From assembly GCA_001599355.1 (NCBI GenBank), contig BCGQ01000005.1:376222-440221 (forward strand): 64,000 nucleotides of DNA. Reading direction: 5' to 3'. Below, one piece after another: positions 544 through 41,927 of the stretch. Position numbers and translations under genes: made by a program. The notes under the pieces were generated by a model. It was given only the letters and a program-made list of their open reading frames with translations. It was not told the origin of the DNA and did no database searches. Position 1 is the stretch's first letter; every line of letters starts with the position of its first letter. Origin of the DNA: Nakazawaea peltata. Lineage: Eukaryota; Ascomycota; Pichiomycetes; Alaninales; Pachysolenaceae.

Positions 544-2790
544 CTATTCTCTAAACTCTACCAGCTTCTTAGAAAGAAGCTTCTTCTTATTCCTCTTATT
601 AACCGTAGAATCGGCCATGACTCTATCGAATTCACCAGCTTGAGCCATCTCTCTGGCAAAATTATCCTTGTCCTTCACCTTGTAAATTCTAACCATCAAG
701 TTCTCCGAGGTATACAGCTCCTCAATACTGTTGATCTGTATACTCTTCAGATGTTTCAGCGATAATCTTTGTTGTCTGACTCTATCGACGGCTCCTTGAG
801 GTCCAAAGATGTCTCCAAATCTGTAGAAAGACATCTTATACATCAACGAGTTCTTCATCAGAGGAGTCAGCATGTCATCCACTTTGTATTCACCTCTTTC
901 AGTGAAGAAACTACGTTCGTTGATCTCCTCTGGCCAGATTCCTTCGCTGATTCTCACCATCCATAAGAATTTGTTCAAATCGTCACCACTGAACCCGATC
1001 ATACCACCAAAGATGACCAAGACGTAATCAACGTCCAATTGTCTCATGAGGATCTCGGATTTCTCCTCGGAAGTGGCCATAGCACGACCAACCATGGCAA
1101 TATGAGTGTTATTCCAAGTGTTGTTGTCGACTAAAGTGGTTCTGTCGGCCATACCTCCGATTTGGTACCCGTAATCCCACCAAGACATCACCTTCAGGTC
1201 CTCTTTAGTGTTCATACGTAACCAATAATACAGTTCTCTGTAATCGTCGATCAAATATTGAGATCCGTCCGGATTATTGGACAGTAAGACGACCGAAGGT
1301 GACGAGTACAGGTTGGAGGTGACCCAGGTACAATGTTGGACGTAGAAATACAAGTAAAACATAAACGAAGCACTGATACAAAGCTTGGAAAGGAAGTTGA
1401 GAGTCAGGTCTTTCTTTTGTTTAGGATTAATGTCCTTAGTTGATGCTTGAATCAAGTCATGGACGTCGAAATAGAGCTCAAATACCTTACCGACAGTGAT
1501 ACCACCACAGACACAAACGATTGGAGTCAAAGTTAAGATCAATCTGATCATCACACCAGCGAAATAACTTCCCAAAACACTATAAATGATGACAAATACG
1601 CTGGCATTTGACAAATCACAGAAACAAAGCCAAACTCCAACTGGGAACAACCAAATTAAGAAGTTCAAGTCGAAGAAAAACAGTGACCAAGGGGTCGGTT
1701 GATGCTCAGAAACCGAAGAAATGATCGGAATATGGACTTTGGCATAGTTGGTGTCCCATAAAGAGTAGAATCTACCGGTCCATGGAGCAATTAAACCAAA
1801 TTTAGTAGCTAAAATCAACCCAGAAACCCCAAGAACACCAATAACAACGGCAAACAGGGTCAGTAATCTACGGAAATTCTTTGGAGACAAGGTCTCTTTG
1901 AAATAATTGATAAATAAAATCAATTGTAACAACCCAAAGACTCCAAAACTGGCCATATGATCGTTGGATCTGATTGGTAAGAAACCTACGAATGGAATTT
2001 GCATAGATAACAAGGTACCCAAGACGTACCATGAACTATAACTGACGTAGATCTTGTAGTCGAATCTACCCATCAATAACAACACGAAGACGTGCAATGG
2101 GATCAAGTTGGTGATGAAAACGTAACCTCCCCAAGCACTTACCATGTAGAAATAGAAGATGGAGGCCAAACAAGACCAGAAAACCGAGCCCAAATTGATC
2201 AGCCTGACCCAGAAATAGAACGTGGCCATAAGCAACGTGATAGCAATGGCTTCGTTATCGTAAGAACCGGCAACAGAACGTGAAATGTAACCCGGAGTAA
2301 TGGCCATGAAGGCAGCACTTAATAAAGAGGCCGTCATGTTATGGTTGGTGATTTCTTTGGTCAAGAAGAAGGTGAAGAGCGATGTAAGTGACGAGAACAG
2401 TGGCAGTAATAACACACAGATGTTTCTGATATCAATTGGTAACCCAATCAATGAAAACACATAGTGAATAAAGCCTGATGTCACCATCAATCCCGGGTAT
2501 AAAGTACCACCGGTGACTCTGCCCAATGGGTACCAAGTTTTGTCATCGAACCAATTGAGGAATTTGTTGAATCCTTTCTCCACCAAGTACCTGGTGGCAC
2601 GGTAATTGAACCATGGATCGAACTCGTGAATGATACTTTCGAATCTGATGACACTGAACAATCTTGAGGAGACTGACGCGAAGGACATGCAGATGAAAAT
2701 GACTAAAATTAATACGGTTTTGATCAATTTCAAAGCCTGAGTAGGCACCACAATGGCGCCAGAGGTGGAATCCACTTGAATTGTCACCAT
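544..2790 (-). CDS. STT3: STT3, catalytic subunit of oligosaccharyltransferase
   Basis: 748 residues, close to the 718 of baker's yeast Stt3. The protein transfers the dolichol-linked glycan to Asn-X-Ser/Thr sites in the ER lumen. There is a first membrane segment at about residues 24-45, followed by the EFDPWFNYR acidic motif at 56-64, many further hydrophobic segments, the SVSEHQPT loop, and the soluble catalytic region with WWDYG at 537-541 and the DNNTWNNTH element after it. Three CTG codons (residues 520, 532 and 692) fall where the family has Ala (REAYYWLR, EDAKVMSWW, EEAYT), which is key evidence for the genetic code here. The start is an ATG at 2788-2790. The gene lies in tandem with MNS1, which trims the glycan that STT3 attaches. 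Confidence 0.97.
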   Translation of the reverse strand: MVTIQVDSTSGAIVVPTQALKLIKTVLILVIFICMSFASVSSRLFSVIRFESIIHEFDPWFNYRATRYLVEKGFNKFLNWFDDKTWYPLGRVTGGTLYPGLMVTSGFIHYVFSLIGLPIDIRNICVLLLPLFSSLTSLFTFFLTKEITNHNMTASLLSAAFMAITPGYISRSVAGSYDNEAIAITLLMATFYFWVRLINLGSVFWSCLASIFYFYMVSAWGGYVFITNLIPLHVFVLLLMGRFDYKIYVSYSSWYVLGTLLSMQIPFVGFLPIRSNDHMASFGVFGLLQLILFINYFKETLSPKNFRRLLTLFAVVIGVLGVSGLILATKFGLIAPWTGRFYSLWDTNYAKVHIPIISSVSEHQPTPWSLFFFDLNFLIWLFPVGVWLCFCDLSNASVFVIIYSVLGSYFAGVMIRLILTLTPIVCVCGGITVGKVFELYFDVHDLIQASTKDINPKQKKDLTLNFLSKLCISASFMFYLYFYVQHCTWVTSNLYSSPSVVLLSNNPDGSQYLIDDYRELYYWLRMNTKEDLKVMSWWDYGYQIGGMADRTTLVDNNTWNNTHIAMVGRAMATSEEKSEILMRQLDVDYVLVIFGGMIGFSGDDLNKFLWMVRISEGIWPEEINERSFFTERGEYKVDDMLTPLMKNSLMYKMSFYRFGDIFGPQGAVDRVRQQRLSLKHLKSIQINSIEELYTSENLMVRIYKVKDKDNFAREMAQAGEFDRVMADSTVNKRNKKKLLSKKLVEFRE

Positions 2791-3271
2791 CTTGTTGATC
2801 AGGTCGGCTTATGGTGGGTAGTGCTAGGATGGGTTTGGAGATTTTTCAGTAGGGAAACGTGTTTTTTTTGGTGGGCTTAGGTGCACTACTTTTGGGAAAA
2901 GGCAGTGGGGAGTGTGCGTTAGTGACTGGGGAGTGACTGGGAGTGACTGGGTGGTGACACAGCGAACTGTCGCTGGACAGAGCTATACGGGCGGCATACC
3001 CTACCATGCATGTGCCTCTATTACCGCATCTACTTACTTCTTCTACTGATCTGCTCTGACCCTACATCTTGATCTGTACATACCCTGTGGTTGTCCCTGT
3101 CGTGGCTCTACTTACGTCTATCTCTACCTACTTCTATCTCTACTTGTGTCTCTACGTTTATCTCTACCTACGTATATCTCTACTTGGATCTCTACTTGTA
3201 TCTCTACTTGTATCTCTACTTGTATCTCTACACCTATTTCTACACCTATCTCTACACCTATCTCTATCCAT
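2791..3271. repeat. STT3 upstream gap with two short-repeat tracts
   Basis: This 481-base gap separates the STT3 start from the MNS1 stop. It holds three close copies of GTGACTGGG at about 2921-2950, and a pyrimidine-rich array of TCTACNTNTATC-like units at about 3108-3273 that runs up to the MNS1 stop codon. The array gives long low-complexity Leu/Tyr/Thr/Ser open frames on the plus strand, which I regard as by-products of the repeat. No gene is seen. Confidence 0.8.
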
Positions 3272-5557
3272 TTATTCATTGATCAACTCCTCAAGCTTCA
3301 GATTGATCTCATCCTTATCTTTAAATACCTTCTGACCTTCTTCACCCCCCTTAATCAGTGCCTCAACCTTCAATTCCAGCACCTCCTGATCAATTGGTTT
3401 ACTTGGTTTCTGACCTTGGATCTTTTTAGCATCCATCTCTTTCTGGGCTTGCTGCTCAACACGGGCTCCCGCCAGCTCTCTCATCAGTTCATGATCCAGT
3501 TTCATTTTCAGTTTTTGTTCTTGTTGCTGCAGTTCATGCAGTTTCTTTTGATCATTGTCATTGAAAGAGATCTCCAGTTTAATTTTAGGTTTTTCTGGTG
3601 TCAGTGCGCCGAATTGAGCGACAGCTGCACCTGCAGTGTCAGCCCCGGATCCTGCCCCGGATCCTGCACCCCTCATGTCACTATCACCCTCCTTATGAAC
3701 ATGTCTATCGTCACGATGTCCAGCTAACCCCTCATCTTTAATAGCAACATTGTTCTGATTGACGAGAACCTTCTTCTTTTTATAACTCTCCTCCTCTTGC
3801 TTGGTCTCCTCCACCAAATCAACCTCCAGATCATCATCCCCCATATTAACTGATCTACTCCATCCCGTCTTGAACAATGGTTCCATCTCAAAGTCTGGAA
3901 GGATATGAGCCTCTGTGTTGAACACAATCTTGGACAAATCAAACTTATCCTCATCATCGAATAACAAATAAAGATACTTCAAGGTTTCCAGTAACCAGAA
4001 ACTCTCCATATTATCCAGCTGTGTACCCTTTGTCACATCATGTAAAGTCGTATAACGGACTCCCTTACCGTCGTCCACCTTGGTGTACTTGACGAAATTC
4101 TGGAAGATCTCATATCCCCACTTTCTATACATTGGATCCTTGGTGATCTTGTACAAATAGTACAAACTTTCCACCGTTTCGGGTCTCTGTAAGTTATGTC
4201 TATCCAGAGGTTTGATATGGAAGTCATGGATCGACTTTGGATCCTGATTGAATACTACGATTTCTGGCGATAACCCGGTAATCTCCACATCATGGTACAT
4301 TTTATAACAAGTATGAGTGATTTCTTTACCGAGCATGAAATTGGCTTCATTGGAAGTACTCCAAGATGGAGATCTTCTAGCCTCATGAATAGGAAGTCCC
4401 TCAGTAGCTCCAAGCAGGAATAATCCTCCGATGAAACATACTAAATGATCCATTTTAGGGTCTAATCCCCCTCCAATTCCCTTTGGTAACTCGCCAATAT
4501 ATGTGTATCCGTTTGGTTTGGATCTTCCCACCATGTGTTTCTTCATTCCCAACACCAGTTCCTCGTACATAGCCTTATAAATTGGTTCCTTGGTCTGCAA
4601 GTATTGCTTTAACAAATATTCATAGTAAGAATCACCTCTTGAACCCAATCTGATTAACTTTCCTTGGTATCTTCCGGTGTCTGGATGAACAAAAATCGGC
4701 AGTAACCCATCCTTTGGATGATTAGCATCTAATGCTTCCATCACCTTCTCTGCTTTCTCCCAATATAAGGCCTCTCCAGTGAGCTTAGACAAATATTTGA
4801 ACTCCAATTGTAAAGTAGCCACCTCGGCAGTCGACGAGGCCCCATTGTCAGCATGACTCTTCACAGCTTTACCTGTCTTCAAGTTAACAGAGGCCATTGG
4901 GATACCAGTCTTGGATTCGAATCCTTTCAATAATCTATTTCCCAAATCTACAGCCTTGTCTAAGTATAAATCATCTTCCGAGAGGTAGAAAGCACTTAAA
5001 AATCCACCCAACATTCTAATAGTAGTCTCAAATACATTCACCTCATAGTTGAAATCATAAGTCAAGGTATCTTTGACCCAACTTCTAGCCCTTGCAAGCT
5101 CTTCTTTACAATCCATAATGACCAACGTATCCAATGAATCAACAATCATCCATCCAAGAGGACGAGGTCCCATATTCTCACCTTTCTGACTCACAGGATG
5201 ATACACATCGTACCCCCATCCATGCAGTTCATAATCATGCCAACTCTGAAGGAAAACTTCTTTAACTTCATCCCTCCTACTTTGCCAGGTATCGGCGTTG
5301 TCCAGAGACTCGTCCTTCTTCAAACTCTGTCCAAATTGGTACACCATATACACCAAGGCAAATCCGATCGACGCCTTGAACAACATCTTGGTGATCCCCC
5401 TTAAATTCCTTCTATTCCCAATAGATACCACGTACTTAGGACCCTCTTTGATTGGCTTGTCCTTATATAATGGTAATGCAGCCGATGACGCCTTTGCTTT
5501 CCAGATGTTCGAGTTGCTCTTGCCAAAAGTTGGCTTGTTGTCGAATTGATAGCTCAT
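3272..5557 (-). CDS. MNS1: MNS1-type ER alpha-1,2-mannosidase (GH47) with a long C-terminal coiled-coil extension
   Basis: 761 residues from the ATG at 5555-5557; an open GTG-started lead of 20 codons upstream is ignored. It is a type II membrane protein with a membrane anchor at about residues 57-76. The catalytic GH47 domain spans roughly 100-555 and shows GPRPLGW, DSLDTL, GASSTAE, GSRGDSYYEY, RPETVESLYYLY and the calcium-site Thr in NTEAH (from residue 547). It removes one mannose from the ER glycan, just downstream of the STT3 reaction. The oddity is the tail. Family members usually end soon after NTEAH, but here about 200 more residues follow: an acidic stretch, a Lys run, a GAGSGAGSGAD-type linker and a highly charged Gln/Lys/Glu coiled coil. 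The catalytic call is secure; the role of the tail is unknown. Confidence 0.93.
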   Translation of the reverse strand: MSYQFDNKPTFGKSNSNIWKAKASSAALPLYKDKPIKEGPKYVVSIGNRRNLRGITKMLFKASIGFALVYMVYQFGQSLKKDESLDNADTWQSRRDEVKEVFLQSWHDYELHGWGYDVYHPVSQKGENMGPRPLGWMIVDSLDTLVIMDCKEELARARSWVKDTLTYDFNYEVNVFETTIRMLGGFLSAFYLSEDDLYLDKAVDLGNRLLKGFESKTGIPMASVNLKTGKAVKSHADNGASSTAEVATLQLEFKYLSKLTGEALYWEKAEKVMEALDANHPKDGLLPIFVHPDTGRYQGKLIRLGSRGDSYYEYLLKQYLQTKEPIYKAMYEELVLGMKKHMVGRSKPNGYTYIGELPKGIGGGLDPKMDHLVCFIGGLFLLGATEGLPIHEARRSPSWSTSNEANFMLGKEITHTCYKMYHDVEITGLSPEIVVFNQDPKSIHDFHIKPLDRHNLQRPETVESLYYLYKITKDPMYRKWGYEIFQNFVKYTKVDDGKGVRYTTLHDVTKGTQLDNMESFWLLETLKYLYLLFDDEDKFDLSKIVFNTEAHILPDFEMEPLFKTGWSRSVNMGDDDLEVDLVEETKQEEESYKKKKVLVNQNNVAIKDEGLAGHRDDRHVHKEGDSDMRGAGSGAGSGADTAGAAVAQFGALTPEKPKIKLEISFNDNDQKKLHELQQQEQKLKMKLDHELMRELAGARVEQQAQKEMDAKKIQGQKPSKPIDQEVLELKVEALIKGGEEGQKVFKDKDEINLKLEELINE

Positions 5558-6056
5558 AAAAAGACAATTGATATAATTCAGACCGTTCGTCCAGTTTTTT
5601 CCAGCTTCCTTGGTCACCTAATATTGTTACTAAAGAGCTGATGTTGTCCCAGTCGGAGTTTATCTCATTGATATCGCGTGCTTCTTTGCGAGTCTAGACC
5701 GTGACACTGTGACAGTGTCAAATTTTTTGTGATTCTTTTGCTGGATTTTTTCTTTTTGGAAATCTGAGACTTTCGCGTTGGGGCTGAGACAGAACGGGAA
5801 GAGGGGTATTACATAGTTAAGCGGATGTAGTGGATCGATGTAGTCGATGAATCTGGGAAGTCCAGGGGACAGAGGAATAATATTCGTGCATAGTGAAGTC
5901 ACTGAATAGGTGGGGAACCTTCCAACACACTTCAAGCGCGCCGTGTCGGCACACATTCAACTGCACACACTCAAGTTCACACATATGCACTGTCACGACA
6001 TCCAAACCTTATTTACGGCAAATCTACAATCATTTAATCGACAATAGTTTATTCTA
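5558..6056. other. Intergenic region, MNS1 promoter and STR2 3' flank
   Basis: 499 bases between two minus-strand genes. Only short open frames without family features are present. I see no RNA gene or repeat of note. The part next to 5558 presumably carries the MNS1 promoter. Confidence 0.6.
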
Positions 6057-7820
6057 CTAATTGTTATGAATAGCATTATGTTGGTCTTGAGCAACTTGTA
6101 ATCCATGTTGGATAATCAGAAGCAACTCATCAATGTCCTCCAACCCAATACTCAATCTGATCAAATTTCTATCGACCCCCCATTTCTCAACCTCATCCAA
6201 TTCGGCAAAATGAGCCAAGATCAGATAAGGGCAAATCAAGGTGAAATTTGTGCCCAAAGATGGACCTTTGGACAAATTGACCTCATTGAAGAAACACCGG
6301 GCATCCACCTCGTCTTTGAAAGTGACTGAAAACAATCCTCCGTAGCCTCCCTTCTCCGTCTTGATGGCATCATAATAACATTTAGATGCAGATAATGTAG
6401 GATAATAAAGATCTTGTACCAAATCGCTCTTCTGGAACAACTCAATAACCTTCAAAGTGTTGCTATTGACCTTTTGTGATCTCTGGACAAAGTCTCTGGA
6501 GTTTCTTTCAAGGTAAATCAGGTCCTCTTCCCAGTATACTTCAGGTTCATATGCATCATCCAACAGTTTCTTCAATATTTCATAACGAGGACTCTTGGAA
6601 TTCAATACCAATGAACCTCCCATGACATTAGAATCTCCACTGAATACTTTAGTCAAGGATGTGGTGACGATATCACAGTATGGCATCGAATTGATGTTGG
6701 AAAAGTTACCTACAGTGTCGTCAACAACGATGACAAACCCGAATTCGAGACTCAATTTCTGTAATCTTGCCAAATTTGGAGTCTTCAACAATGGATTCGA
6801 AGGACACTCGCAAAACAAAGCTACAAATCTCGAACCACTCTTCAATTTGGCCTCCAACTCGTCAATGCTATCGTCATCACCAAACCCGTAGAATTGGACA
6901 CCAGTTCCCCACTTCTTCAAGATATTCAAGGTGTCGACATATGGGAATCCAAAACAAATAGACTCCTCTTGTTCCCCACGCTCAGGATACAGTGCCAAAA
7001 CCAGCTGATGAGCACTGAAAATAGACGTCATACCAGTAGGATAAAGGTACACATCCTCGTCTCTCACCTCATTAGACCCATTCTCATTAATCGTTTTAGA
7101 AATTCTTCTCTTTAGTATACTCTTCAGCTCTTGAGCAAATCTAATATCTAAGTTTCTACCGAATCTTTCCTCAATAAATGTCGAATATTCTTTCTCCAAC
7201 TGCTGAGAGGAGGTGGATGATGATCTGTTCATGGATACAGAGGATCTCTTTGGGTTTCTGACCTTGGCCTTCAATCTCTCTTGAAGTTCCTTGGCCTTCA
7301 GCTCCGAGTCCTTCAACAATTTGTCCTTCAATTCAGACAAAATATAGTCGGCTTTTCTAGAAGAGATTCCCTCTCCAGTATGTTGCCAGTAATTCTTCAG
7401 TAAAGGCCATTCGGATCCCGGGAAAAACACGACACTGAAATCAGTAGCGATTCTCATAGCCAGTTCTTCCTCGTTCTTAGGAGAAGGTGTGGACAATTGT
7501 AAAATTCTGATGTTACATCTCTCCAAACTGGTCTTGGACTTGATGAAAGTACGGCACCTTTTGGCTATGTTGTAAGTGGGGAAACACATCAGTTTCTCGT
7601 GCTCTTTTCCGTAGCTCAACTCCAACAACTCACATAGGTATTGAATGGACTTGTGAATGAAGAATCTTGGGTACCCGGAAGTCATCTTATTGACCACCCA
7701 ATCTTGCCCCTCTTCATAACCAACGTTGGCTTCCCAAGTCGGCAAGGAAACAGATACGGCATGGGGGGTGTTATTGGGGATGGTGGCACCGATTTCTTGG
7801 GAAATCGGAGTAGAAGGCAT
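6057..7820 (-). CDS. STR2: STR2, cystathionine gamma-synthase (PLP enzyme)
   Basis: 587 residues; baker's yeast Str2 has 639. It joins cysteine to an activated homoserine to give cystathionine in transsulfuration. The N-terminal half carries the fungal Str2-type extension (PTWEANVGYEEGQDW, then SGYPRFF). The C-terminal half is the Cys/Met-metabolism PLP fold, with the Schiff-base lysine in TTSLTKVFSGDSN at residue 391, and a preceding VVDDTVGNF element that supplies the cofactor-binding Asp. The ATG at 7818-7820 directly precedes the conserved N-terminus. Fungal paralogues of the YML082W type share this layout, so the assignment within the family is likely but not certain. Confidence 0.88.
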   Translation of the reverse strand: MPSTPISQEIGATIPNNTPHAVSVSLPTWEANVGYEEGQDWVVNKMTSGYPRFFIHKSIQYLCELLELSYGKEHEKLMCFPTYNIAKRCRTFIKSKTSLERCNIRILQLSTPSPKNEEELAMRIATDFSVVFFPGSEWPLLKNYWQHTGEGISSRKADYILSELKDKLLKDSELKAKELQERLKAKVRNPKRSSVSMNRSSSTSSQQLEKEYSTFIEERFGRNLDIRFAQELKSILKRRISKTINENGSNEVRDEDVYLYPTGMTSIFSAHQLVLALYPERGEQEESICFGFPYVDTLNILKKWGTGVQFYGFGDDDSIDELEAKLKSGSRFVALFCECPSNPLLKTPNLARLQKLSLEFGFVIVVDDTVGNFSNINSMPYCDIVTTSLTKVFSGDSNVMGGSLVLNSKSPRYEILKKLLDDAYEPEVYWEEDLIYLERNSRDFVQRSQKVNSNTLKVIELFQKSDLVQDLYYPTLSASKCYYDAIKTEKGGYGGLFSVTFKDEVDARCFFNEVNLSKGPSLGTNFTLICPYLILAHFAELDEVEKWGVDRNLIRLSIGLEDIDELLLIIQHGLQVAQDQHNAIHNN

Positions 7821-8468
7821 GATGACGGTAGTTTGGCTTCAATATCTCGTGTTTTCACTGCTCCGCCCTTTAAATATTCGATATGACTATTTCAAAACCC
7901 CTTCTTTAAAGTATGAATCATAGTTTTTTTTCAGCGGTTTGCGCTAAAAATTTTCCGATAGGGGTGAGGAGGGCAGAGGGCAGATAGGGCAGGTAGTGAC
8001 TGGGAGTGTAGTGACTGGGGGTGTAGTGACTGGGACTGACTCGCACTGACTCGCATTGAAATACTAAAAACTTACCATACACTACGGAACTACTGAGAAC
8101 ATTCAACCGAACCACACGTCCCAACTACACACCAGCAAACTACACTCCACTAAACTTCACACTCCACAAATCTACACTCTCACAGATCCTCGATCCATCT
8201 TCCTACAATTCTCATCAAAATTCATTCTATTCTTATATATCCCTCAGCTCAGAGTATCATATATGAGTTTCTTTTTTTCAAGACACTCTCCAAGATCCAC
8301 TTGACTCAAAACTCCAAACCTCAGAACCATCAAATAATAACAAATTTCGTCCATTAGCTACCGCTAATTCTAATATTATAGTTGTAATATTGCTTTTGGA
8401 AATTCAATCGTAACAGTGTTAAAGTAATATAATGATCATGCGGGTGAATTGATCAAAAGTCCTGGCCT
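7821..8468. repeat. STR2 upstream gap with GTGACTGGG repeats
   Basis: 648 bases lie between the STR2 start and the ATP18 stop. At 7993-8058 there are three copies of GTAGTGACTGGG followed by copies of CACTGACTCGC. The same GTGACTGGG core is repeated upstream of STT3. TGACTC half-sites resemble the core of a Gcn4 site, but no exact TGACTCA is present here. No gene is seen. Confidence 0.65.
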
Positions 8469-8654: not shown

Positions 8655-8820
8655 TTTATCCAATTGATTGATTGATTACAAAACTGTCTACTAGTGGTCT
8701 CGATATAATTTCAATTTTTTTTAAAAAACGCCCTTTGTTGTTCCCATTTTTTCCAAGGAAGAGGAGGAAAAATTTGCAGTGATTTCATTGGGGGAGAGTT
8801 TGGGGTATTGTGCACGACTT

Positions 8821-9878: not shown

Positions 9879-10874
9879 TTAAATAGCGATGGAACCGATG
9901 ACCTTGACTCTCTTGACACCTCCATCTGGAATAATGGTCAACTTGATATGAGAGACCTTTGGCAAAGCTTGCTCAGCAATTTCGTATTCATGTTCTTTAT
10001 CTGGACCAGTCTTACTCTTATCAACTAACGAAACCCAAGTAGCATCTGTTGGGACTTGTTCAGCAGAGTAACATCCCTCAACTTGGATATATTGAGGGAA
10101 GTTACCACGGAAATGAGCAGTATCAATGACAATCTTGGAAATTTTAGACAGAGGAGCTCCTAACTTGATAATAACCCAATCGACATGACCAGGAGTTCTG
10201 GATCTCAGAGTTTCCCATCCATCACTCATATCGAAACCACGACCTGGCAAGACTAAATTGTCAGCACTACCGAAATGTTGGTCACTTACCAGAACAGCAA
10301 CACCACCGTTCAACACACTGGCCAAATCCAACTCGGTGTTAACATCTTGAGGCAAAATTGGAATGACTTCACCGTAACATCTGAATCTCAGAATACCTCC
10401 ATCTGGGTACATCTTTAACTTAACATATTGGTAGTTAGAGGAAGTAATCTCCAGTCTGGTGAAGAAATGTCTTTGAGAAGGACCACATTCGGTGTATGGA
10501 ATGACCTCATCCCATTTCTCCAAATCGTTACTCAGTTCTACACTGATCAGAGGAGCATGGTTACCGTTGAAAAACAGAGTATCAACTTCGACAGCCTTGA
10601 TCTTAGCAGAAGAAACACCCATCTTGATGATCACCCAGTCGAATGGCTCGGTGTTATGTCTTCTAGTTTCCCATCCGTCATACCAAGCACCGGAATAGAC
10701 AAACTTAGTCAGGTCACGGATCGGCAGCTTTGGCTTGATCAAATTCTCCAGATCCAGGAACCATTGGTCAGAGAAAGAGTGGATGCTACCGCCCAATTTT
10801 TCACCAATGACATCGGTATAGTTTAAAACAATTTGTTTGTGGAATTCTTCTTCAGAGATCTTTGTAACTGACAT
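9879..10874 (-). CDS. DAL2: DAL2, allantoicase
   Basis: 331 residues from the ATG at 10872-10874. It hydrolyses allantoate to ureidoglycolate and urea in purine-derived nitrogen use. The protein is the expected tandem of two allantoicase repeats. Repeat one has GAWYDGWETRRHN and DWVIIKMG; repeat two has SDGWET-x-RSRTPGHVDW and VIIKLG. The x in repeat two is a CTG codon at 10206-10208 (residue 223), where the family has Ala (WETAR). GATA core sites occur upstream (for example GATAA at 10941-10945), in keeping with nitrogen control, though I do not see a dense cluster. Confidence 0.95.
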   Translation of the reverse strand: MSVTKISEEEFHKQIVLNYTDVIGEKLGGSIHSFSDQWFLDLENLIKPKLPIRDLTKFVYSGAWYDGWETRRHNTEPFDWVIIKMGVSSAKIKAVEVDTLFFNGNHAPLISVELSNDLEKWDEVIPYTECGPSQRHFFTRLEITSSNYQYVKLKMYPDGGILRFRCYGEVIPILPQDVNTELDLASVLNGGVAVLVSDQHFGSADNLVLPGRGFDMSDGWETLRSRTPGHVDWVIIKLGAPLSKISKIVIDTAHFRGNFPQYIQVEGCYSAEQVPTDATWVSLVDKSKTGPDKEHEYEIAEQALPKVSHIKLTIIPDGGVKRVKVIGSIAI

Positions 10875-13999: not shown

Positions 14000-15937
<1,938 letters not shown>

Positions 15938-32258: not shown

Positions 32259-34016
32259 TTAGTGAGCCATCAAGATAGCGATCATTGTGTTCCAAGAATC
32301 GTTTTCAAGTAATTTGTAGAGTTGTGGCTCAGATTGAGATTCTTCAGTTTGAGCCAACTGTAAAATGCAATTTTTCAGATCATCATTCAAAAGGTCCAAG
32401 TTAAATAACAAATAATAGAGCAAATGGAAATTGCTTATCAAATTACTGCGTAATTTGGTCAAATCAAATTCTCCTGTTCTTGTGTTTATCTCCAACAGAG
32501 ATGCACAACTTTGAATCGATTGGATCTCTTGGATATAATTTCTGTTTTCCACAACGAAATTTGTTAATTTTGGGAATTTCAATGACTCCTCTTGCAGCAG
32601 CAGAGGAAAACCGTGAGTTAAACTCACAATAAGGTATTCTACCGGGAACCATGGCTTAGCATTCACCTTGACTTGTCTTCCATATTCATTAATTTTGTTG
32701 TAGAAAATCTCAGGAACATATTTCTCACCGTCCTCTTTAATGAAGACACAACTTGGATGTGTTGATCCTGTTATCAAATCCAGCTCCACCAATTTTTCAC
32801 AACTATTACTTACCTGATACAGTGAAATATCGATCTCACCTTTATCGTTACCAGTGATGCAACAAGTGACAAATTTGGAGGAGAATTTCCCGGAAGCAGA
32901 CCATTTAGAGTAATTTGGATTTTTCATCTGAAGTCTAGCCAGGAATAATACTTCCAAAGATGACAAAAAGAAAGAATCCTTATGTCTTTTACATAAAACT
33001 GTTTGATTACCAAGACCTGAATCGGTTAAATCTGTGAAAATGATTCCAACTGGTTGCAAACCAAACACAGAGCTCAATTTAGAAACATTATTCCACTCTT
33101 GTTCATAAATGTCCTGATCCAATACAAGACCATCAATGTCATCTAATTGAGGTAACTCATAAATCAGTTCAACACGCAGTTTAATGCCCAAGGGTACCTT
33201 ATCATATTTCTCATATTTTCCAATTAATAATCCCAACCTTTGCATTCCTGATTTTCTCCAAGTATTGATGAACTCATTGATAATTTCTGGATTGCTGAAC
33301 TCAACGTGGTCAACCATACGGAATTTCTGTTGCAGTAATGTGATCAGCGAAGGTTGACACTTAGAACAGATCTGCAGAGGTGGATGATTCGGACAGTTAC
33401 TTGTCTTAACATAACTTGGCTCTTCCAATGGAGGTATAAAAGAAGTAGCCGAATCTTTACGATTGGTCAGATCGTTCATAGACTTCACATAAGCGTGGTA
33501 TGAAATGTGTTTAATATTATTTTCCTCGTGATATTTCTCATCATATGGTGGTAAAGGTGAACAATATTCACACATACCTTTCTCCGTATGACTACATAAA
33601 GCAGATCTCTTACGTGCTATCAACCCCTCCTCTTTATCTAACTCATCATCTACCGGTAATTGTTTGATTTTCTTCTCAGTAATGATTGCCGTTGTAGGCA
33701 TTGAAGCGCCAGCTGACTTCTCCTCGACTATCCCACTGGAGACAGAGGCTGCCAGCTCATCCACATCATATTTCAAGTAAAACATCTCACCATTTCTAAA
33801 TCCCATCGATGACAAAGGTCTACCCTTCAATTCAGAGATCGGGACTCCTTCACCTTGTCCATTGGCATTCTGATAAACAATCAAACTCAGAGGAACAAGA
33901 CCCGCTGGCAACTTATTGAGTAATTGGGACTCGATCAAGCCTGGCATATCCAATTGATCCAGGTCGAAATCCTCCGTTCTGTATCTACCATCTTTGGAAT
34001 TGAATCTGAAGATCAT
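32259..34016 (-). CDS. NPL4: NPL4, ubiquitin-binding cofactor of Cdc48
   Basis: 585 residues, matching baker's yeast Npl4 (580). With Ufd1 it loads ubiquitylated substrates on Cdc48 in ER-associated degradation. There is an N-terminal ubiquitin-like domain (about residues 1-80), a zinc-binding region with CEYCSPLPPYDEKYHEE and CPNHPPLQICSKCQPS, then the MPN-like domain starting with FRMVDHVEFSNPEIINEFI and containing the GMQRLGLLIGKY segment. Three CTG codons (residues 280, 284 and 359) sit where other Npl4 proteins have Ala (GIKAVVEAIYE, AARLQ), supporting CTG as Ala. The ATG at 34014-34016 starts directly in the UBX-like fold. Confidence 0.96.
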   Translation of the reverse strand: MIFRFNSKDGRYRTEDFDLDQLDMPGLIESQLLNKLPAGLVPLSLIVYQNANGQGEGVPISELKGRPLSSMGFRNGEMFYLKYDVDELAASVSSGIVEEKSAGASMPTTAIITEKKIKQLPVDDELDKEEGLIARKRSALCSHTEKGMCEYCSPLPPYDEKYHEENNIKHISYHAYVKSMNDLTNRKDSATSFIPPLEEPSYVKTSNCPNHPPLQICSKCQPSLITLLQQKFRMVDHVEFSNPEIINEFINTWRKSGMQRLGLLIGKYEKYDKVPLGIKLRVELIYELPQLDDIDGLVLDQDIYEQEWNNVSKLSSVFGLQPVGIIFTDLTDSGLGNQTVLCKRHKDSFFLSSLEVLFLARLQMKNPNYSKWSASGKFSSKFVTCCITGNDKGEIDISLYQVSNSCEKLVELDLITGSTHPSCVFIKEDGEKYVPEIFYNKINEYGRQVKVNAKPWFPVEYLIVSLTHGFPLLLQEESLKFPKLTNFVVENRNYIQEIQSIQSCASLLEINTRTGEFDLTKLRSNLISNFHLLYYLLFNLDLLNDDLKNCILQLAQTEESQSEPQLYKLLENDSWNTMIAILMAH

Positions 34017-34282: not shown

Positions 34283-34936
34283 ATGTATAGATTCAGGTTG
34301 CCAGTGGCTAGGCAGTTGATGAGGCTGTTCTCACTGAGATCGATAATACTAAAACCGCTGCCTGAGTCGAAGAAATACGAGTTCTATGAGAAGGAACTCG
34401 AATCCGAGCAGCCTCCGATGCCGGAGGACCTGAAAGTGGTGGAATCTTCGATTGTTTTTGATACCCAGTCTCTGTCCGAAGAGGGTAAAATGAAGTTAGA
34501 GGATATATTTGGAGCTGGAGGTAAGAAACAGACCATCTCTTCACGTATGGATTTGTCATATAGAGCCCAGAACAAAATGATAGCAGGAGTCGAAGTTCCA
34601 AAGAGACCTATTGAGCCTACAAACTGTTGTGGAAGTGGATGTGTTAACTGTGTGTGGGTGATCTTTGATGATGATATGGAAGAGTGGAAGGAGCTCACCC
34701 AAGAACTGATAGAACTGTTACAAGAGCAAGATACTTCCTCGGGTCAATATGAGAAATGGCCTTTGAATTTTGATCCTCCTCCAAAGGGTTTAGATTCAAA
34801 ATTTATTCCAGATGAGTTGAAAGAACTGCCCCTGGCAGAAGTCGAGAACAACATGCCTATACAATTCTCTGTGTTCACCAACTTTGAAAGGAATAAGAAA
34901 AAGCAACATGGTTTAGATACAAAAACTACTGCATAG
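34283..34936 (+). CDS. OXLD1-like mitochondrial protein (oxidoreductase-like domain)
   Basis: 217 residues. The N-terminus is rich in Arg and hydrophobic residues (MYRFRLPVARQLMRLFSLR), a typical mitochondrial presequence. The middle holds the signature of the oxidoreductase-like domain, PIEPTNCCGSGCVNCVW, with four Cys in the CCxxxCxxC pattern. The C-terminal third is acidic and Pro-rich. Biochemical activity of this family is not established to my knowledge. It is divergent from NPL4 with 266 bases between the starts. Confidence 0.8.
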   Translation: MYRFRLPVARQLMRLFSLRSIILKPLPESKKYEFYEKELESEQPPMPEDLKVVESSIVFDTQSLSEEGKMKLEDIFGAGGKKQTISSRMDLSYRAQNKMIAGVEVPKRPIEPTNCCGSGCVNCVWVIFDDDMEEWKELTQELIELLQEQDTSSGQYEKWPLNFDPPPKGLDSKFIPDELKELPLAEVENNMPIQFSVFTNFERNKKKQHGLDTKTTA

Positions 34937-35009
34937 ACCCAAACTAGTCATCATTATTTATAAATATTCAACCGTCTATTAAGACTTTAATTTATTATAC
35001 ACATATTAT

Positions 35010-35271
35010 TTAAAATTTCTTTACTTTGACCGTAGGGGGTTTGGCTTTGACACCATAAACACATATCCACAATACAAGTCCGGCAATGGAAGCTAATCCA
35101 ATCTAAGTCAACTTGTTAGATCACATACTAAACGATTCTAAATCTCTTCATACTTACTCTAGGCAATAAATAGTCGTGGAAATAAGGACCAATGCTTATC
35201 ACTTCCACGTGGAAAAAAGCATATAATGTTCCTATGACCCAAATTGATAATACGATCTCAGTTGGAGTCAT
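35010..35271 (-). CDS. Spliced 68-residue protein with two membrane segments
   Basis: Exon 1 is 35158-35271 (ATG at 35269-35271, 38 codons). The intron is 35103-35157 (55 bases, donor GTAAGTAT, acceptor GACTTAG, a CTAAC-containing branch-like element in between). Exon 2 is 35010-35102 with TAA at the end. The product starts MTPTEIVLSIWVIGTLYAFF, giving one hydrophobic segment at about residues 6-28, then HDYLLPR at the splice junction, a second segment (about 39-55, IGLASIAGLVLWICVYG) and a basic tail ending VKVKKF. Perfect frame across a consensus intron supports a real gene. A small ER or mitochondrial membrane subunit is likely, but I do not recognise it. Confidence 0.75.
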
Positions 35272-35615
35272 CTCTGGGGTACTTGGGTACTTGTGAATCC
35301 ACTGCAGCTGTTATGAATCAGTTGATTTCTTCAAAAATCATTCCCCTCAAGATCTTCAGAGGTGAAAACGTAGCAAATAATGAAATTTTCTCTTCAATGA
35401 CTCCCTTCGATTATTAGGCGCTAGAGAATGTGCTTGAGAATTTGCGTAGCAAAAAATACAAAAAAATTCTCTTTGGTGGGGGTCGAACCTCATCTACTAA
35501 ATGAAGAGGATAAACCAATGAATGGCAATATCTTTGGCAATATGATCCGTATGACTCTCATTCCAATTCCATCACACATCCACTTGCATTCCGAACTCAA
35601 ATCCTCCATTTTGCA
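35272..35615. other. Gap between the small membrane-protein gene and U6
   Basis: 344 bases containing the U6 downstream B block and a T7 run on the minus strand just beyond it (35467-35461). A 71-codon plus-strand open frame here overlaps the U6 gene antisense and is rejected. Confidence 0.65.
35479..35489 (-). promoter_or_regulatory. Extragenic B block downstream of U6
   Basis: On the minus strand the sequence is GGTTCGACCCC, a match to the Pol III B-block consensus GGTTCGANNCC. It lies about 126 bases beyond the U6 terminator, in the same orientation. In baker's yeast SNR6 the TFIIIC B block is placed about 120 bases downstream of the gene, so position and sequence agree. No tRNA cloverleaf can be folded around it. 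Confidence 0.8.
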
Positions 35616-35720
35616 AAAAAAATTGGTTAATCTCTTTGTATAGCGTGTCATCCTTATGCAGGGGCCATGCTAATCTTCTCTGTATTGTTTCAAATTGACT
35701 AAATGTCCCGAAGGACAAAC
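35616..35720 (-). ncRNA. SNR6: U6 spliceosomal snRNA
   Basis: On the minus strand it starts near GTTTGTCCTTCGGGACATT (5' stem-loop), then TAGTCAATTTGAAACAATACAGAGA. It thus includes the invariant ACAGAGA box that pairs with 5' splice sites. AGATTAGCATGGCCCC, the TGCATAAGGATGACACGC region and TACAAAGAGATT then lead into a run of eight T (35622-35615), a Pol III terminator. The AGC-containing segment resembles the catalytic-triad region of other U6 RNAs. Length of about 105 bases fits. A TATA element upstream and a B block downstream complete the Pol III arrangement. The exact 5' base is estimated. Confidence 0.95.
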
Positions 35721-35740
35721 AGCTTTACGAAATTTATGGA

Positions 35741-35746
35741 ATATAT
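35741..35746 (-). promoter_or_regulatory. TATA box of U6
   Basis: TATAT on the minus strand (within ATGATATATTCC) lies about 21-27 bases upstream of the estimated U6 5' end, the spacing used by Pol III TATA-dependent snRNA genes. Confidence 0.6.
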
Positions 35747-35896
35747 CATGAGTGTGAGTAAACATCCTAATTTGGAATTCCAGGGGCTGTGTCAAACCAA
35801 AATTTCTAGCTTTTTCTGCTACAAACGCACATTTTTATTTAATTAATTAATTCACCTCTCATCACTAAATATTAATCTCATCTGATTGCATTTAAA

Positions 35897-36703
35897 ATGT
35901 CTACTAAAGCCGATCAAGCTAACGCCAATCAACTGCAATACACCCCATTACTGGAGCCTCCATTATACAGCCCTGATGGGTCGAGTTCACAACCTGTAAG
36001 AGACTTCAATGACAACTTGCCACCTGACTTCAAATACTCCACAAGTGTTGCTTCATGTGACATCGAGATTAGACAGATCTTCATTAGAAAAGTCTATTCG
36101 TTATTGTCGATGCAATTATTCATCACCTTCTTGACAGGCTTGGTCATCTTCTATAATGAACCATTGAAACTCTGGTGTTTGAATAACACTTGGTTGCTCT
36201 TTGTCGCCATGTTTGGCGCTATTGGATTTATGATTGCCGCCTTCTTCAAATCCAGGTCTTATCCTCATAATTTGTTATTGTTGACTGGATTTACTGTTTG
36301 CGAGAGTTATTGTGTCGCTTTGGCAACTTCTTTATATGATACCAACATTGTTTTACAACTGATATTAATCACTGTCATTGTATTTGTCGCATTGACAGTC
36401 TATTCTTTACAAACCAAATATGATTTCACTGCTTGGCAAACTTACATGTCGGCCACATTTTTCATTTTCTTCTCTGTTGGATTGGTTTACATGTTATTAC
36501 CACACAATTCGACTTCTGAGATTGTTTATTCTTCAGTTGGAGCTCTCGTATTTGGAGCCTTCATTTTGATCGATACCCAACAAATCATGAAACATTATCA
36601 CCCAGAAGAAGAAATCGCAGCTACTATCACTTTATATTTGGACATTATTAACTTGTTCTTGTATGTGTTGAGGATCTTAGCCGCTACACAAGAGCGTGAT
36701 TAG
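35897..36703 (+). CDS. BXI1: BXI1, Bax-inhibitor-1/TMBIM-family membrane protein
   Basis: 268 residues; baker's yeast Ybh3/Bxi1 has 297. A soluble Pro-rich N-terminus of about 55 residues is followed by EIRQIFIRKVYSLLSMQL, the family entry motif, and seven hydrophobic segments. The C-terminal signature IDTQQIMKHYHPEEEIAATI is followed by a last segment with LYLDIINLFLYVLRIL. The family acts in ER/vacuole calcium and stress responses. It is divergent from U6, with about 176 bases between their starts. Confidence 0.95.
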   Translation: MSTKADQANANQLQYTPLLEPPLYSPDGSSSQPVRDFNDNLPPDFKYSTSVASCDIEIRQIFIRKVYSLLSMQLFITFLTGLVIFYNEPLKLWCLNNTWLLFVAMFGAIGFMIAAFFKSRSYPHNLLLLTGFTVCESYCVALATSLYDTNIVLQLILITVIVFVALTVYSLQTKYDFTAWQTYMSATFFIFFSVGLVYMLLPHNSTSEIVYSSVGALVFGAFILIDTQQIMKHYHPEEEIAATITLYLDIINLFLYVLRILAATQERD

Positions 36704-36764
36704 ATTGACTATATATATTATTAATTTTATTGATGACCATATGAATGATTAACACCAATTATGA

Positions 36765-37976
36765 TTAGTTAGTTTTCTTTGTTTCTTCTTCCTCGGACTC
36801 GTCATCACTTCTTTCATCCTTGACGATATCTAAGAAGACAAATCTATAGGCGATTCTGAAGATCAATGCTAACCAATACAGGTTAACTAATTGTAAGGCG
36901 AAAAGTAAGACGAATACGATTGGTTGGGCGATCCAACATTTATATTGTTGTTCTTCCCAATTCAAATCGAATCTACCAACGGTTCTAAACTCGGTCAAAA
37001 CAGACCATAAAATCTTCAAGTTCAAGTAGTGTCTCAAGTAGACCCAAATAACAATGAAGAGAGCAAAGAAAGGACCGATGAGAATGGAGTCCAAATAGTT
37101 CAACGTCTTGGACAACAGCAAGAAGAAGTCACTGATATCCATAGTGATATAGACGGCAATACCCATCCAGGTGAAATGGAATCTATAACTACAGAAAATC
37201 AACAGGATAGTCACGATATGATGGAAAACCAACTCTTTGAAATCCTTTCTTGGAGCTTCAACTTGTAACAGTAAAAGTACCGACTGTTGAGCCCAGAACA
37301 GCAGTTGACCCAAATAATATACCTTGAATAAAAACTCATGAGATTTATGAGGATACTCGGTGTAGAATTCGGTAGTATTGAAGTACCACAATGGCATCGT
37401 ACTCATAATGTATAAACCGAGAGGACCACTGATTCCATAGTAACACATACTGAAAGTCTGTTCCATGAATCTCTTTATCTTTCCCTCTTTAACAATACCG
37501 AATTTGATAGCCATTGGACGCAAGAAGAATTGCATCAAGAATTCTCTATAGAAAGTGAAGAAGATCATATAGAAACCAACAAAAAGGAAATCCTTAGGAC
37601 CTTTACCATACATTCTTGGCTCGGTATCAGGAATCTCGTAAGAAACAGTGACAAAGGCATGTAACACATTGGATTCAGTATAATTTCCCGACAAAAAGTA
37701 GGCCAGGTACACAACCACCATAATGATCAGAGGAGTCAACCAAGTGAATCTGGAATTCAATTCGACAAAAGAGAGCCAAAACTTCTTGACAACAGAAGAG
37801 TTACTTCCGATGCTTTCCTCCAATTTCTCCAGACGAGCTCTTTTCAATTGCTCGACTCTATCACTGGAGGCCATTGTTTGTAACGAAGGAGCTGTAGTGT
37901 CACCAAGTGTGACGGTACCTAAAGATGAGTTGCGACGGCGTCTAGTGTTACGCGCCGATGAAGATGAGTGGGACAT
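36765..37976 (-). CDS. LAG1: Ceramide synthase subunit, LAG1/LAC1 family
   Basis: 403 residues from the ATG at 37974-37976. It joins a very-long-chain fatty acyl-CoA to a sphingoid base in the ER. After an Arg/Ser-rich cytosolic N-terminus there are about seven membrane segments forming a TLC domain. The Lag1 motif with FHHIVTILLIFCSY and ITMDISDFFLLLSKTLNYL includes the catalytic His-His and two conserved Asp. The acidic Ser-containing tail (DERSDDESEEEETKKTN) resembles the CK2-regulated tail of Lag1/Lac1. Whether it is the LAG1 or LAC1 orthologue cannot be settled here. Its product feeds the AUR1 reaction; AUR1 lies 18 kb away. Confidence 0.9.
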   Translation of the reverse strand: MSHSSSSARNTRRRRNSSLGTVTLGDTTAPSLQTMASSDRVEQLKRARLEKLEESIGSNSSVVKKFWLSFVELNSRFTWLTPLIIMVVVYLAYFLSGNYTESNVLHAFVTVSYEIPDTEPRMYGKGPKDFLFVGFYMIFFTFYREFLMQFFLRPMAIKFGIVKEGKIKRFMEQTFSMCYYGISGPLGLYIMSTMPLWYFNTTEFYTEYPHKSHEFLFKVYYLGQLLFWAQQSVLLLLQVEAPRKDFKELVFHHIVTILLIFCSYRFHFTWMGIAVYITMDISDFFLLLSKTLNYLDSILIGPFFALFIVIWVYLRHYLNLKILWSVLTEFRTVGRFDLNWEEQQYKCWIAQPIVFVLLFALQLVNLYWLALIFRIAYRFVFLDIVKDERSDDESEEEETKKTN

Positions 37977-38579
37977 ATTATGGAAATTTGAAGAGACTGG
38001 AAATTTAGGAAATTGAAATAGCCAGTATTTGAATCTTGTGCGATGATAACGCTGCTCAATCCAACAGTTCAGATCAATCAAACTTCTGTCTAATACAGCC
38101 AATCGATCGAAATATAAACAAGCTCGAAAATTTTGTTGTTGGGATAGGGAAGTTGTAATTTGCTCAGAAGATGAGGGGCTAAGGGGCTGAGCTAAGGAGA
38201 TAAAGGGCAGAAAATGAGGGAAGAAAAGGGATAAAGGGCAGAATACGAAGCTAAAGAGCGTTAAAGGAGGTAAGGGAGATAATGACAGGGGGGAGGAGTT
38301 GTATTGAGGGGAGAGATTGCATAGGAGGGGGGTGAATGCGAAGGAGGAAGTACGGGGAAGTACGGGAACGTAGTAGTGAACACCCGGAGATACACAACAA
38401 GCGAAGGGATGACTATTGATAAGGTCAAATGACTAAGAAGGGGGTAAAAGAGAAAGGGCCAGGAGAAAGGGGGTAAGGGCAAATACGAAGAACCAAACAC
38501 CAAATTCCAAAGGGGTAACTGGCCACCCAATCTAATTATCTACTACCTACATTCTCTCAATAAACACAATCTATAAATA
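37977..38579. other. Purine-rich intergenic region upstream of the ceramide synthase gene
   Basis: 603 bases between minus-strand genes. The plus strand at about 38165-38520 is unusually rich in G and A (units like AAAGGGCAGAA, GGGGCTGAG and GGAGGTAAGGGAGATA). No gene is seen. Confidence 0.6.
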
Positions 38580-39910
38580 CTAATTCTTCTTGCCCTTCTT
38601 CTTCTTCTTCTTCTTTGAATTTTTACCTCCCCCATTAGTAGTAGGGGCAGCATTGGAAGTAGAAGGAGAAAGCCAGGACGAGTCGTGCGCACCATTTACC
38701 GGATCTGTGGATTGTGGGGGTTCGGAAGCTTCCGAGGTATTAAGAGGATCCACTTTAATATCCAGCTGTGGTTCTTCTATGGAGGTGTCCAGTTGATCAT
38801 CCAGTTGTATTGATGGAGACAGCTGTGATGGAGGCAGCTGTTTCTTAGAAGCCTTTCGGCTTTCTCCATTACTGGACCCCTTTCTTTGATTATTTGAACT
38901 TGATTTCTAGAGCTTGGATGACGTTGTAAATCTCCATTCTTTGCACGACCAATTGGTGAAGGGGTATCTCTAGTTTTCTTTACATTAAGTTGCAGATCCA
39001 ATTGATGAGTCAAACTTGCAGGTAATGTTAATGAAACTGGAGCAGGCAGTTCCAATTCGGTATCTTCTTGGGTATTCTCTTCCTGAATTTCTTGTGGCTC
39101 TTCATTTTCACTATTAGATCTGATCTCATCACCATTAACTACAGGTAATTCTCTATTAGTATCCTTCAATATCTGCTCACACTCACTTAAAACAGCCTTT
39201 GTCTTCTCACCATGATCTTTAGCCGCAAGTGCCAACATCTCTAACACCTTGGTAATCGCATTATTCTTCTTCATATACAGAGTTTCTAACTTTTTGGATT
39301 TGGTGTTGAGTTTATCAAATAACATATGGAACTCATCATTAGTACTCTCCACAGTCTCAAGACTCTTCTTAAGTGAAGCTTCACGTCTTTGTAGCTGTTG
39401 TTCGAATCCTTCTTTCACCATTTGAATCTCATTCTCAAAATGACTCTTATAATGTTTTTGCAGATTCACCAAGGCATCGTATTGAGCCTTCAAAACCTCA
39501 TACTCTCCCATAATACGAGTCTCATTTTCCTGCAATTTCTTCACCTTAGATTCAGCAGCTTTATTCTTGAGCTCCAAATCATCGACATTCGACACCAAAT
39601 CTGTCCATTGCTGCTCCAAATCTTTGATCCTTCTATTCTTACTCAGTAACATGGAGTTCATCACATCATTCTCATGCTTGATATTGGCCAAAGTCTCCAC
39701 CATTTGTTGAGATCTTTGGCTGAGCACATCATGTTTCCTTCTATATTCACGTACATTGATCTCAGACTTCTCCAATGACACTTTCAATTCATCTATTTCC
39801 GAATGAAGTCCGTCGATGACCCTCGTTGTTTTAGATTTGGCCGCGGATGACATTTTATTGGGTGTCAGAGGTTCCAAAACCGCAAAATTCTCCTTATCAA
39901 GGCCACTCAT
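38580..39910 (-). CDS. SHE3: SHE3, adaptor of mRNA transport, with an apparent -1 frame break near the C-terminus
   Basis: From the ATG at 39908-39910 the first frame gives 377 residues to a stop at 38777. The protein links the type V myosin Myo4 to She2-mRNA particles. About 190 residues of coiled coil (from TRVIDGLHSEIDELKVSLEK) match She3, and a Pro/Ser-rich RNA-binding-type tail follows. The last 25 or so residues of this frame (rich in Cys, His and Trp) look out of place. The -1 frame, open from 38906 to a TAG at 38580-38582, instead encodes 108 residues with RKGSSNGESRKASKK and a final KKKKKKKGKKN, which fit the tail far better. So either one base is missing in this assembly near 38902-38908 (GAAATC run), or the allele or mechanism truly shifts. 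No classic slippery heptamer is seen. Confidence 0.8.
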
Positions 39911-40307
39911 ATACTGGGGATGTCGTGATATGTTGGTGACTTTCTGCTTACTGGACCTTCACTACCGACCTTTGTTCTCAGTTAACTCACAAGAGCTGGA
40001 CGCTGATTGAATTTTTGTTAGCGCCTTGACCTTTTTTTTTCTCAGTAAATTTGTGCCCTTGTTTATTTATGTTTTACTGGATTTGTGGGGCATATTGGGG
40101 AGGGCAAATGGATCTGCCCTAAATCAACACAAAAACAGGGGCGGTTCGAAAACAGGGGCTGTCCAGTATCAGGAACCTCGAGGATCAACAGCAGCCCACC
40201 AGCAACAACCTTGAATATAAAGACTCAGATACTTACCATTCACTACTACCACTACCATCTCCTACAATTACACATCTACTCCACTATTCAAATCTCTCAA
40301 TTACTTT
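39911..40307. other. Upstream region of SHE3
   Basis: 397 bases. An ATG|GTAAGTATC on the minus strand at 40237-40239 resembles a start codon followed by a splice donor, but no convincing acceptor joins it to SHE3. Nothing else is seen. Confidence 0.5.
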
Positions 40308-41927
40308 TTACATACCAAATTGTTTCATCATATTCTGCATCATACCAGGATTTTGCATCATTTGTTGAACTTGAGGACTATTCATCATTTGTTGCATAGC
40401 TTGAGGATTCTGCATCATATTCTTCAATTGCTCTTCACCAGCTGCTCCTCCCATCATATTTCTCAACATTGGATTGTTTTTAATATTGGCCATTGCTCTT
40501 TGCATGTTGGCAGGGTTCATCATACTAGCCATTCTACTTGGGTTCATGCCTCCAGGAGCAGCTCCTCCTGGCATTCCTGGCATACCTCCAGCTCCTGCAA
40601 CGTTAGAAACCATACCTTCCATAGCACGTTGTTGCATAAGTACCATTTCTACTTCACCTACAGAGGTACCAGATCCTCTAGCAACTCTTACAATTCTCTC
40701 TGGATTCTCAATAAAGATTCTACCATCACTTTGTAACTCCTCTTTGGTCATCGAGTCCATAATGTAGATCATTCTCTTCATCATTAATGCAGTATCTTCC
40801 TCTCCCAGCTTATCCAACAGCCCCATTCCTCCAGGTAACATCCTGGCAATCTTTGACAATGGTCCCATCTTCATCATATTGTTTATTTGATTCTGGAAGT
40901 CTTGTAAGGTGAATTTACCTTCACTAATATTCTTCATCGTATCTTTCTGATCCAAATTTAATGACTGAACATGCTCGATCAACCCTTGAATATCTCCAAT
41001 TCCCAATAATTTGGAAATGAAATTTCTTGGACTGAATGTCTCCAAATCTGTTACATGTTCACCAGTACCAATAAATATGATAGGAGTCTTGGTAGCGGCA
41101 ACAGAAGAGATGGCACCACCACCTTTAGCATGACCATCCATTTTAGTGATGATGATAGCACCGAAATTAGAAGCATCTTTGAAAGCCTTAGCTTGACTCT
41201 CGGCCAGTTGTCCAATAGAAGCATCTAAAACCATAATAGTTTGTTGTGGATTAACAGCTTCACCAATTTGTACCATTTCTTCAAAAAGCAGATCCTCTTG
41301 TCTATGTCTACCGGAGGTATCAACGATGATCACTTCGAATTTCTCTTTCTTGAACTTCTCAACACCATCACGACTCACTTTAACAGGATCTGTCTCGGTA
41401 TAAGAACCATAGTATGGAATCTTAGCCTTAGTAGCGTTTTGCTTCAATTGGTCAAAAGCACCAGCTCTGAAAGTATCAGCACATACTAACCCAACTTTGA
41501 ATCCTCTTCTTTGATAATATACAGCCAACTTGGTACATGTAGTAGTCTTACCGGAACCTTGTAAACCAACAAACATAATAACATTGGACTGCTTCTTCTT
41601 TGGCTTGAACCCAACTTCCTTCTTACCTTTATCATCGTCATAAGTCAGGAAATCAACCAAATTACATAACTCATCGAAGACAACCTTCTTCACCAACTTC
41701 TTCTTATCCAGGGATTTGTTACTTTCGGTTTCTAATTGAATATTCTTCTTGATCTTTTCTCTCAATTTCATCACCAACTTCACGTTGACATCACTCTCTA
41801 ATAAAGCGTTACAAATCTCCTTTAACATGGAGTTGATAGCCTCTTGATCGACCGATGAGCCGGTCGACTTGCCGAGGTTATCATTGAGCGCAGAGTTGAT
41901 ACGCCTACTTAAATCACCTAACACCAT
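40308..41927 (-). CDS. SRP54: SRP54, GTPase subunit of the signal recognition particle
   Basis: 539 residues from the ATG at 41925-41927; baker's yeast Srp54 has 541. It binds signal sequences as they leave the ribosome and docks at the SRP receptor. The N domain is at about residues 1-90. The G domain holds GLQGSGKTT (G1), [18 protein letters not shown] (G3), [11 protein letters not shown] (G4) and IFIGTGEH. The Met-rich M domain binds SRP RNA and signal peptides and ends with repeated Met/Gln/Asn runs. A CTG codon at residue 241 falls on the Ala of SIGQAxE, a nearly invariant position, supporting CTG as Ala. Confidence 0.97.

Follow-up and report, generated by a model that had tools for sequence, protein, structure and literature searches.

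Which amino acid does the codon CUG specify in the 64 kb stretch of Nakazawaea peltata DNA analysed here (contig BCGQ01000005.1, positions 376,222 to 440,221; hereafter the window)? A sequence-only reading of the window had placed CTG codons on columns that it took for conserved alanines and had proposed that CUG is read as alanine (Ala) rather than as leucine (Leu) or serine (Ser). Our analysis leads to the same answer. The window is almost certainly nuclear DNA of a budding yeast in which CUG is read as Ala, with a code that is otherwise standard as far as it was tested. This variant is already known as NCBI translation table 26, which is named for Pachysolen. The window is gene-dense eukaryotic DNA with a GC content of 39.2%. 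For the clade, one published value is 42.3%, for N. ambrosiae (PMC10106607), which has no bearing on the identity of the species. It contains 31 open reading frames (ORFs) of at least 150 amino acids. All were used except two that overlap each other at the left edge (2-508 and 44-508), which leaves 29. CTG makes up 255 of the 14,369 codons in these 29 ORFs.

The eleven codons on which the sequence-only reading relied lie in STT3, NPL4, ERG11, SRP54 and DAL2, and all eleven are indeed CTG, in frame, at the positions collected in Table 1. In alignments with solved homologues (one to three per site), eight of them face Ala in every homologue, as had been claimed. Residues 532 and 692 of STT3 agree in part, with Ala in two of three homologues. 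Residue 223 of DAL2 does not: the solved allantoicase carries lysine (Lys) in the sequence WETKR, and the proposed motif WETAR was not borne out. These sites had been picked by the earlier reader; a separate test took codons without such selection.

The unselected test used 15 pairwise alignment blocks between ten window proteins and solved homologues, comprising 6,950 aligned cells and covering 92 of the 119 CTG codons of these proteins. The residues facing each codon were then scored with empirical profiles, one for each of the 20 amino acids. Because the query proteins carried Leu at CTG, any bias in the alignments disfavours Ala. With one homologue counted per site, the 92 CTG codons faced Ala 34 times, Ser 11 times, Leu nine times, proline six times, valine (Val) and Lys five times each, and other residues 22 times. 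Ordinary Ala codons (GCN, 168 sites) faced 86 Ala, 11 Ser and five Leu residues, and the other five Leu codons (423 sites) faced 255 Leu and 11 Ala residues. The CTG tally departs from the expectation for a Leu codon far beyond chance, and the share of CTG codons that fall on Ala columns approaches that of the ordinary Ala codons. In the 20-residue scan Ala scored highest, followed by Ser (32.8 nats lower), cysteine (59.5 nats lower) and threonine (78.5 nats below Ala); Leu lay 106.4 nats below Ala. Thirty-three CTG columns were represented by at least two homologues; nine of these were Ala throughout, one each was uniformly threonine, glutamine, Lys or Val, and none was uniformly Leu or Ser. 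In the corresponding control columns, GCN codons gave 18 all-Ala columns out of 53 and the other five Leu codons gave 57 all-Leu columns out of 145. As a rough guide to sample size, Codetta is reported by its authors to exceed 95% power with about 8-34 aligned Pfam consensus columns (PMC8629427).

Pfam profiles gave an independent comparison of the three meanings. Translations of 20 of the 29 proteins under tables 1 (CUG as Leu), 26 (Ala) and 12 (Ser) were searched; for the remaining nine, only the table 26 translation was used. Thirty-two non-overlapping families that appeared with each of the three codes were compared, including a few that scored under their curated cut-off. Summed scores were 4324.6 bits for Ala, 4279.1 bits for Ser and 4205.3 bits for Leu. 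Ala thus gained 119.3 bits over Leu, scoring better in 27 families, equally in two and worse in three, and gained 45.5 bits over Ser, with 20 families better, three tied and nine worse. The sequence-only reading had suggested scoring the residues opposite CTG; carried out on the ten aligned proteins, this made Ala the best of 20 residues and, together with the Pfam scores, upholds Ala over Leu and Ser. From this meaning it follows, as had also been stated, that standard-code proteins from the window are wrong at CTG throughout. Annotated under table 1 or table 12, they would carry an incorrect residue at roughly 1.8% of their positions.

The same scan was applied to all codons with at least eight sites, which left 54 for testing and seven that were skipped (CCC, CGA, CGC, CGG, CTA, GCG and TGC). 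Forty-eight of the 54 were assigned their standard residue, corresponding to 48 of the 60 sense codons other than CTG; the 12 without an assignment are the seven skipped codons, ATG, TGG, TGT, AGC and AGG. Among the other CTN codons, CTT and CTC scored as Leu, and CTA had only three sites. ATG, TGG and TGT gave nonstandard outcomes, but a profile built by leaving one codon out cannot judge them. For AGC (16 sites) the preference was for Ala, 2.7 nats ahead of Ser, and for AGG (11 sites) it was for Lys, 0.9 nats ahead of arginine; so few sites carry little weight. Ala also faced 20 of the 100 AGY serine sites, a larger share than the 26 of 242 for TCN (Fisher p = 0.035). Given the many comparisons and small numbers, this excess is probably not meaningful, and we make no claim for it. 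CTA itself is very rare in the window, with 34 of 567 CTN codons. Underuse of CUA has been reported for CUG-Ser clades and also for some standard-code Dipodascaceae and Trichomonascaceae (PMC6701816).

How well do other meanings of CUG account for these data? The standard meaning, Leu, can claim the nine CTG sites that face Leu. It is refuted by the alignment scan, the multi-homologue columns and the Pfam scores: Leu falls 106.4 nats and 119.3 Pfam bits below Ala, and all-Leu columns number 0 of 33 for CTG versus 57 of 145 for the other Leu codons. We give this meaning a negligible chance. In favour of reassignment to Ser, as in table 12 and the Ser1 clade, Ser ranks second of the 20 residues, faces 11 of the 92 sites and gives the top score in nine of the 32 Pfam families. 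This second place probably reflects the frequent exchange of Ser and Ala. CTG codons were not found on serine columns, as a CUG-Ser1 or CUG-Ser2 code would have it; Ser lies 32.8 nats and 45.5 Pfam bits below Ala, and among the 33 multi-homologue columns none is all Ser and nine are all Ala. A Ser meaning is therefore extremely unlikely.

Several results weigh against Ala as the exclusive meaning. Ala was found at a smaller fraction of CTG than of GCN sites (34/92 versus 86/168; Fisher p = 0.037) and Leu at a larger one (9/92 versus 5/168; p = 0.040). With homologues of at least 57% identity only, the excess of Leu persisted, with 22 Ala, eight Leu and seven Ser residues at 57 CTG sites and 64 Ala, six Ser and four Leu residues at 110 GCN sites. 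Where three or more of the four flanking residues were identical, Ala occupied 36 of 66 CTG cells versus 65 of 93 GCN cells. The highest Pfam score was obtained with Ser in nine and with Leu in two of the 32 families, and no tRNA was detected in the window by ARAGORN, also when introns were allowed, or by Rfam. Moreover, the CTG sites are better described by a mixture, with weights of 0.66 for Ala, 0.21 for Ser and 0.13 for Leu, than by Ala alone, at a gain of 11.9 nats; the bootstrap 95% ranges are 0.05-0.24 for Leu and 0.05-0.39 for Ser. Such a mixture would be expected if CUG were ambiguous, read mostly as Ala and less often as Leu or Ser through competing or misacylated tRNAs, as has been reported for Ser2 and Ser1 yeasts. 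However, both ranges reach 0 once a background class is added, and all-Leu columns are absent from the multi-homologue set. Left-out ordinary Ala codons give similar Ala/Ser/Leu mixtures (0.73/0.18/0.09 for GCC and 0.77/0.23/0 for GCA; GCT is purer, at 0.96/0.04/0), so that no second, minor meaning of CTG need be assumed. In addition, a new CTG codon can arise by a single change only from codons for Leu, Val, methionine, proline, glutamine or arginine and never from GCN, and some excess of such residues would therefore be expected. We consider an ambiguous CUG unlikely and retain the reading of CUG as Ala.

For CUG to be read as Ala, a tRNA-Ala with its anticodon changed to CAG would decode it, and the ancestral tRNA-Leu(CAG) would have been lost. 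The G3:U70 pair is a feature of tRNA-Ala. Both proposed steps come from the literature: in the clade with CUG as Ala, which comprises Nakazawaea, Peterozyma and Pachysolen, the tRNA with a CAG anticodon is reported to derive from tRNA-Ala, and tRNA-Leu(CAG) to have been lost (PMC5951914). Alanyl-tRNA synthetase is described in the same paper as requiring no particular anticodon bases, so a tRNA-Ala(CAG) would still be charged with alanine. The three genera are those that the sequence-only reading had named, rightly, as the lineage with a CUG-Ala code, and they are placed in the order Alaninales in the NCBI taxonomy. Seventeen sequenced members of the order are counted in PMC12322030. Judged from the code alone, membership in this order is most likely; that the code belongs to some other lineage is highly improbable. 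Ascoidea rubescens was given as a CUG-Ala species by a 2017 review (PMC5499181), but Krassowski et al. report Ser at its CUG codons by mass spectrometry (PMC5951914).

CTG is a much-used codon in the window. It occurs 17.7 times per 1000 codons in the 29 ORFs versus 11.3 times per 1000 triplets outside them, and it is the commonest CTN codon, making up 45% of its box and 31% of all Ala codons if CTG is counted with GCN. In other boxes G-ending codons are scarcer: they account for 6-9% of GCN, CCN and ACN, 14% of GGN, 16% of TCN and 22% of GTN. Raw abundance proves nothing by itself about meaning, because in the same 29 ORFs the triplet CTG occurs 255 times in frame but 305 and 68 times when the two other frames are counted. 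CTG supplied 0.35 of the Ala codons in aligned regions versus 0.28 outside them (92:168 versus 27:68; p = 0.25), and it was the codon in nine (33%) of the 27 uniformly Ala columns at which the window has CTG or GCN. At 41 CTG per 1000 codons, an oxidoreductase-like protein (Table 1) is richer in this codon than any other of the 29 ORFs; several of its CTG codons are N-terminal, in a stretch that by eye resembles a mitochondrial targeting sequence.

On the basis of 29 genes in one window, we lean slightly toward regarding CUG here as a fully settled, high-use alanine codon and no rare remnant, a view that may be familiar to specialists. Krassowski et al. describe CUG as a relatively infrequent codon across the clades with a changed code, taken together, and one that tends to occur in orphan genes or where alignment is poor (PMC5951914). 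In contrast, CTG in the window is common and has not been pushed from conserved regions, and such heavy use fits oddly with the published generalisation. An earlier study of Pachysolen found no CUG where Leu or Ser is at least 90% conserved, though its discussion mentions conserved serine positions (PMC4986446). Heavy use of CUG at conserved alanines would be useful for studying how a codon spreads after reassignment. If the reading is correct, Ala has, like serine, two codon groups that no single base change connects, and a CTG codon at an ancient alanine would have passed through another residue or arisen by a double change. This genome would then make the question of the route from GCN to CTG directly testable.

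The gene content of the window is that of an ordinary yeast. Pfam families include STT3, GH47 mannosidase, a Cys/Met metabolism pyridoxal phosphate (PLP) enzyme, allantoicase, HAD hydrolase, P450, a LicD protein, beta-mannosidase, NPL4, SRP54, Bax1-I, a TLC-domain protein, uS2, Dsl1, PAP2, a TFIIS_M/SPOC protein, SHE3 and capping protein alpha, among others; four of the 29 ORFs are without a Pfam match. The Cys/Met enzyme is STR2-like in yeast nomenclature. The frame that is open at the left edge gave no match in a Pfam search at E 0.01; it is probably the 3' part of a gene cut by the window edge. When prokaryote genomes were searched with DAL2, 15 stretches matched and yielded two distant loci, which were not used.

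Table 1. Window features, with their CTG codons and the residues that these face in solved homologues
Feature	Positions	Strand	CTG codons	Remarks
Frame open at left edge	2-508	+	10	168 aa
STT3, oligosaccharyltransferase catalytic subunit	544-2790	-	17
CTG, STT3 residue 692	715-717	-		Ala, Val, Ala
CTG, STT3 residue 532	1195-1197	-		Ala, Ser, Ala
CTG, STT3 residue 520	1231-1233	-		Ala, Ala, Ala
CTG, STT3 residue 494	1309-1311	-		Ala in 3/3
CTG, STT3 residue 129	2404-2406	-		Ala in 3/3
GH47 alpha-1,2-mannosidase (MNS1-like)	3272-5557	-	20
CTG, GH47 mannosidase residue 381	4415-4417	-		Ala in 2/2
Cys/Met metabolism PLP enzyme	6057-7820	-	11
Allantoicase (DAL2)	9879-10874	-	12	6 of 12 face Ala in solved allantoicase
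CTG, DAL2 residue 223	10206-10208	-		Lys
ERG11/CYP51	14381-15937	+	8
CTG, ERG11 residue 126	14756-14758	+		Ala, one homologue
CTG, ERG11 residue 204	14990-14992	+		Ala, one homologue
CTG, ERG11 residue 448	15722-15724	+		Ala, one homologue
NPL4	32259-34016	-	17	residues 224 and 412 also Ala in 2/2
CTG, NPL4 residue 359	32940-32942	-		Ala in 2/2
CTG, NPL4 residue 284	33165-33167	-		Ala in 2/2
CTG, NPL4 residue 280	33177-33179	-		Ala in 2/2
Oxidoreductase-like protein	34283-34936	+	9	218 codons
U6 spliceosomal RNA gene	35617-35716	-		Rfam, 101.6 bits; gap between two protein genes
Ceramide synthase (LAG1/LAC1)	36765-37976	-	9	2 face Ala, 3 face Leu
SRP54	40308-41927	-	6
CTG, SRP54 residue 241	41205-41207	-		Ala, one homologue
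Mitochondrial ribosomal protein uS2m (MRP4)	45415-46668	+	8	3 aligned, facing Ala, Ser, Pro
C/D box snoRNA snR71	51880-51972	-		Rfam, 87.1 bits
Beta-mannosidase-like GH2 protein	52685-55231	+	11

Reassignment within the CUN box has precedents of several kinds. In Ashbya mitochondria, CUU and CUA are reportedly reassigned to Ala. The likeness to the window lies in the use of CUN codons for Ala; but that code is mitochondrial and concerns other codons, and CTT and CTC score as Leu in the window. The CUG-Ser1 (table 12) and CUG-Ser2 codes of budding yeasts reassign the same codon, but the window fits Ser clearly worse than Ala. According to Krassowski et al., only CUG has been reassigned among the species that they treat, and no other codon in any of them (PMC5951914). 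The closest counterpart is the code of table 26 and the Alaninales, in which, as in the window, CUG columns are Ala; 48 other codons of the window are standard, and no tested feature contradicts membership in that order.

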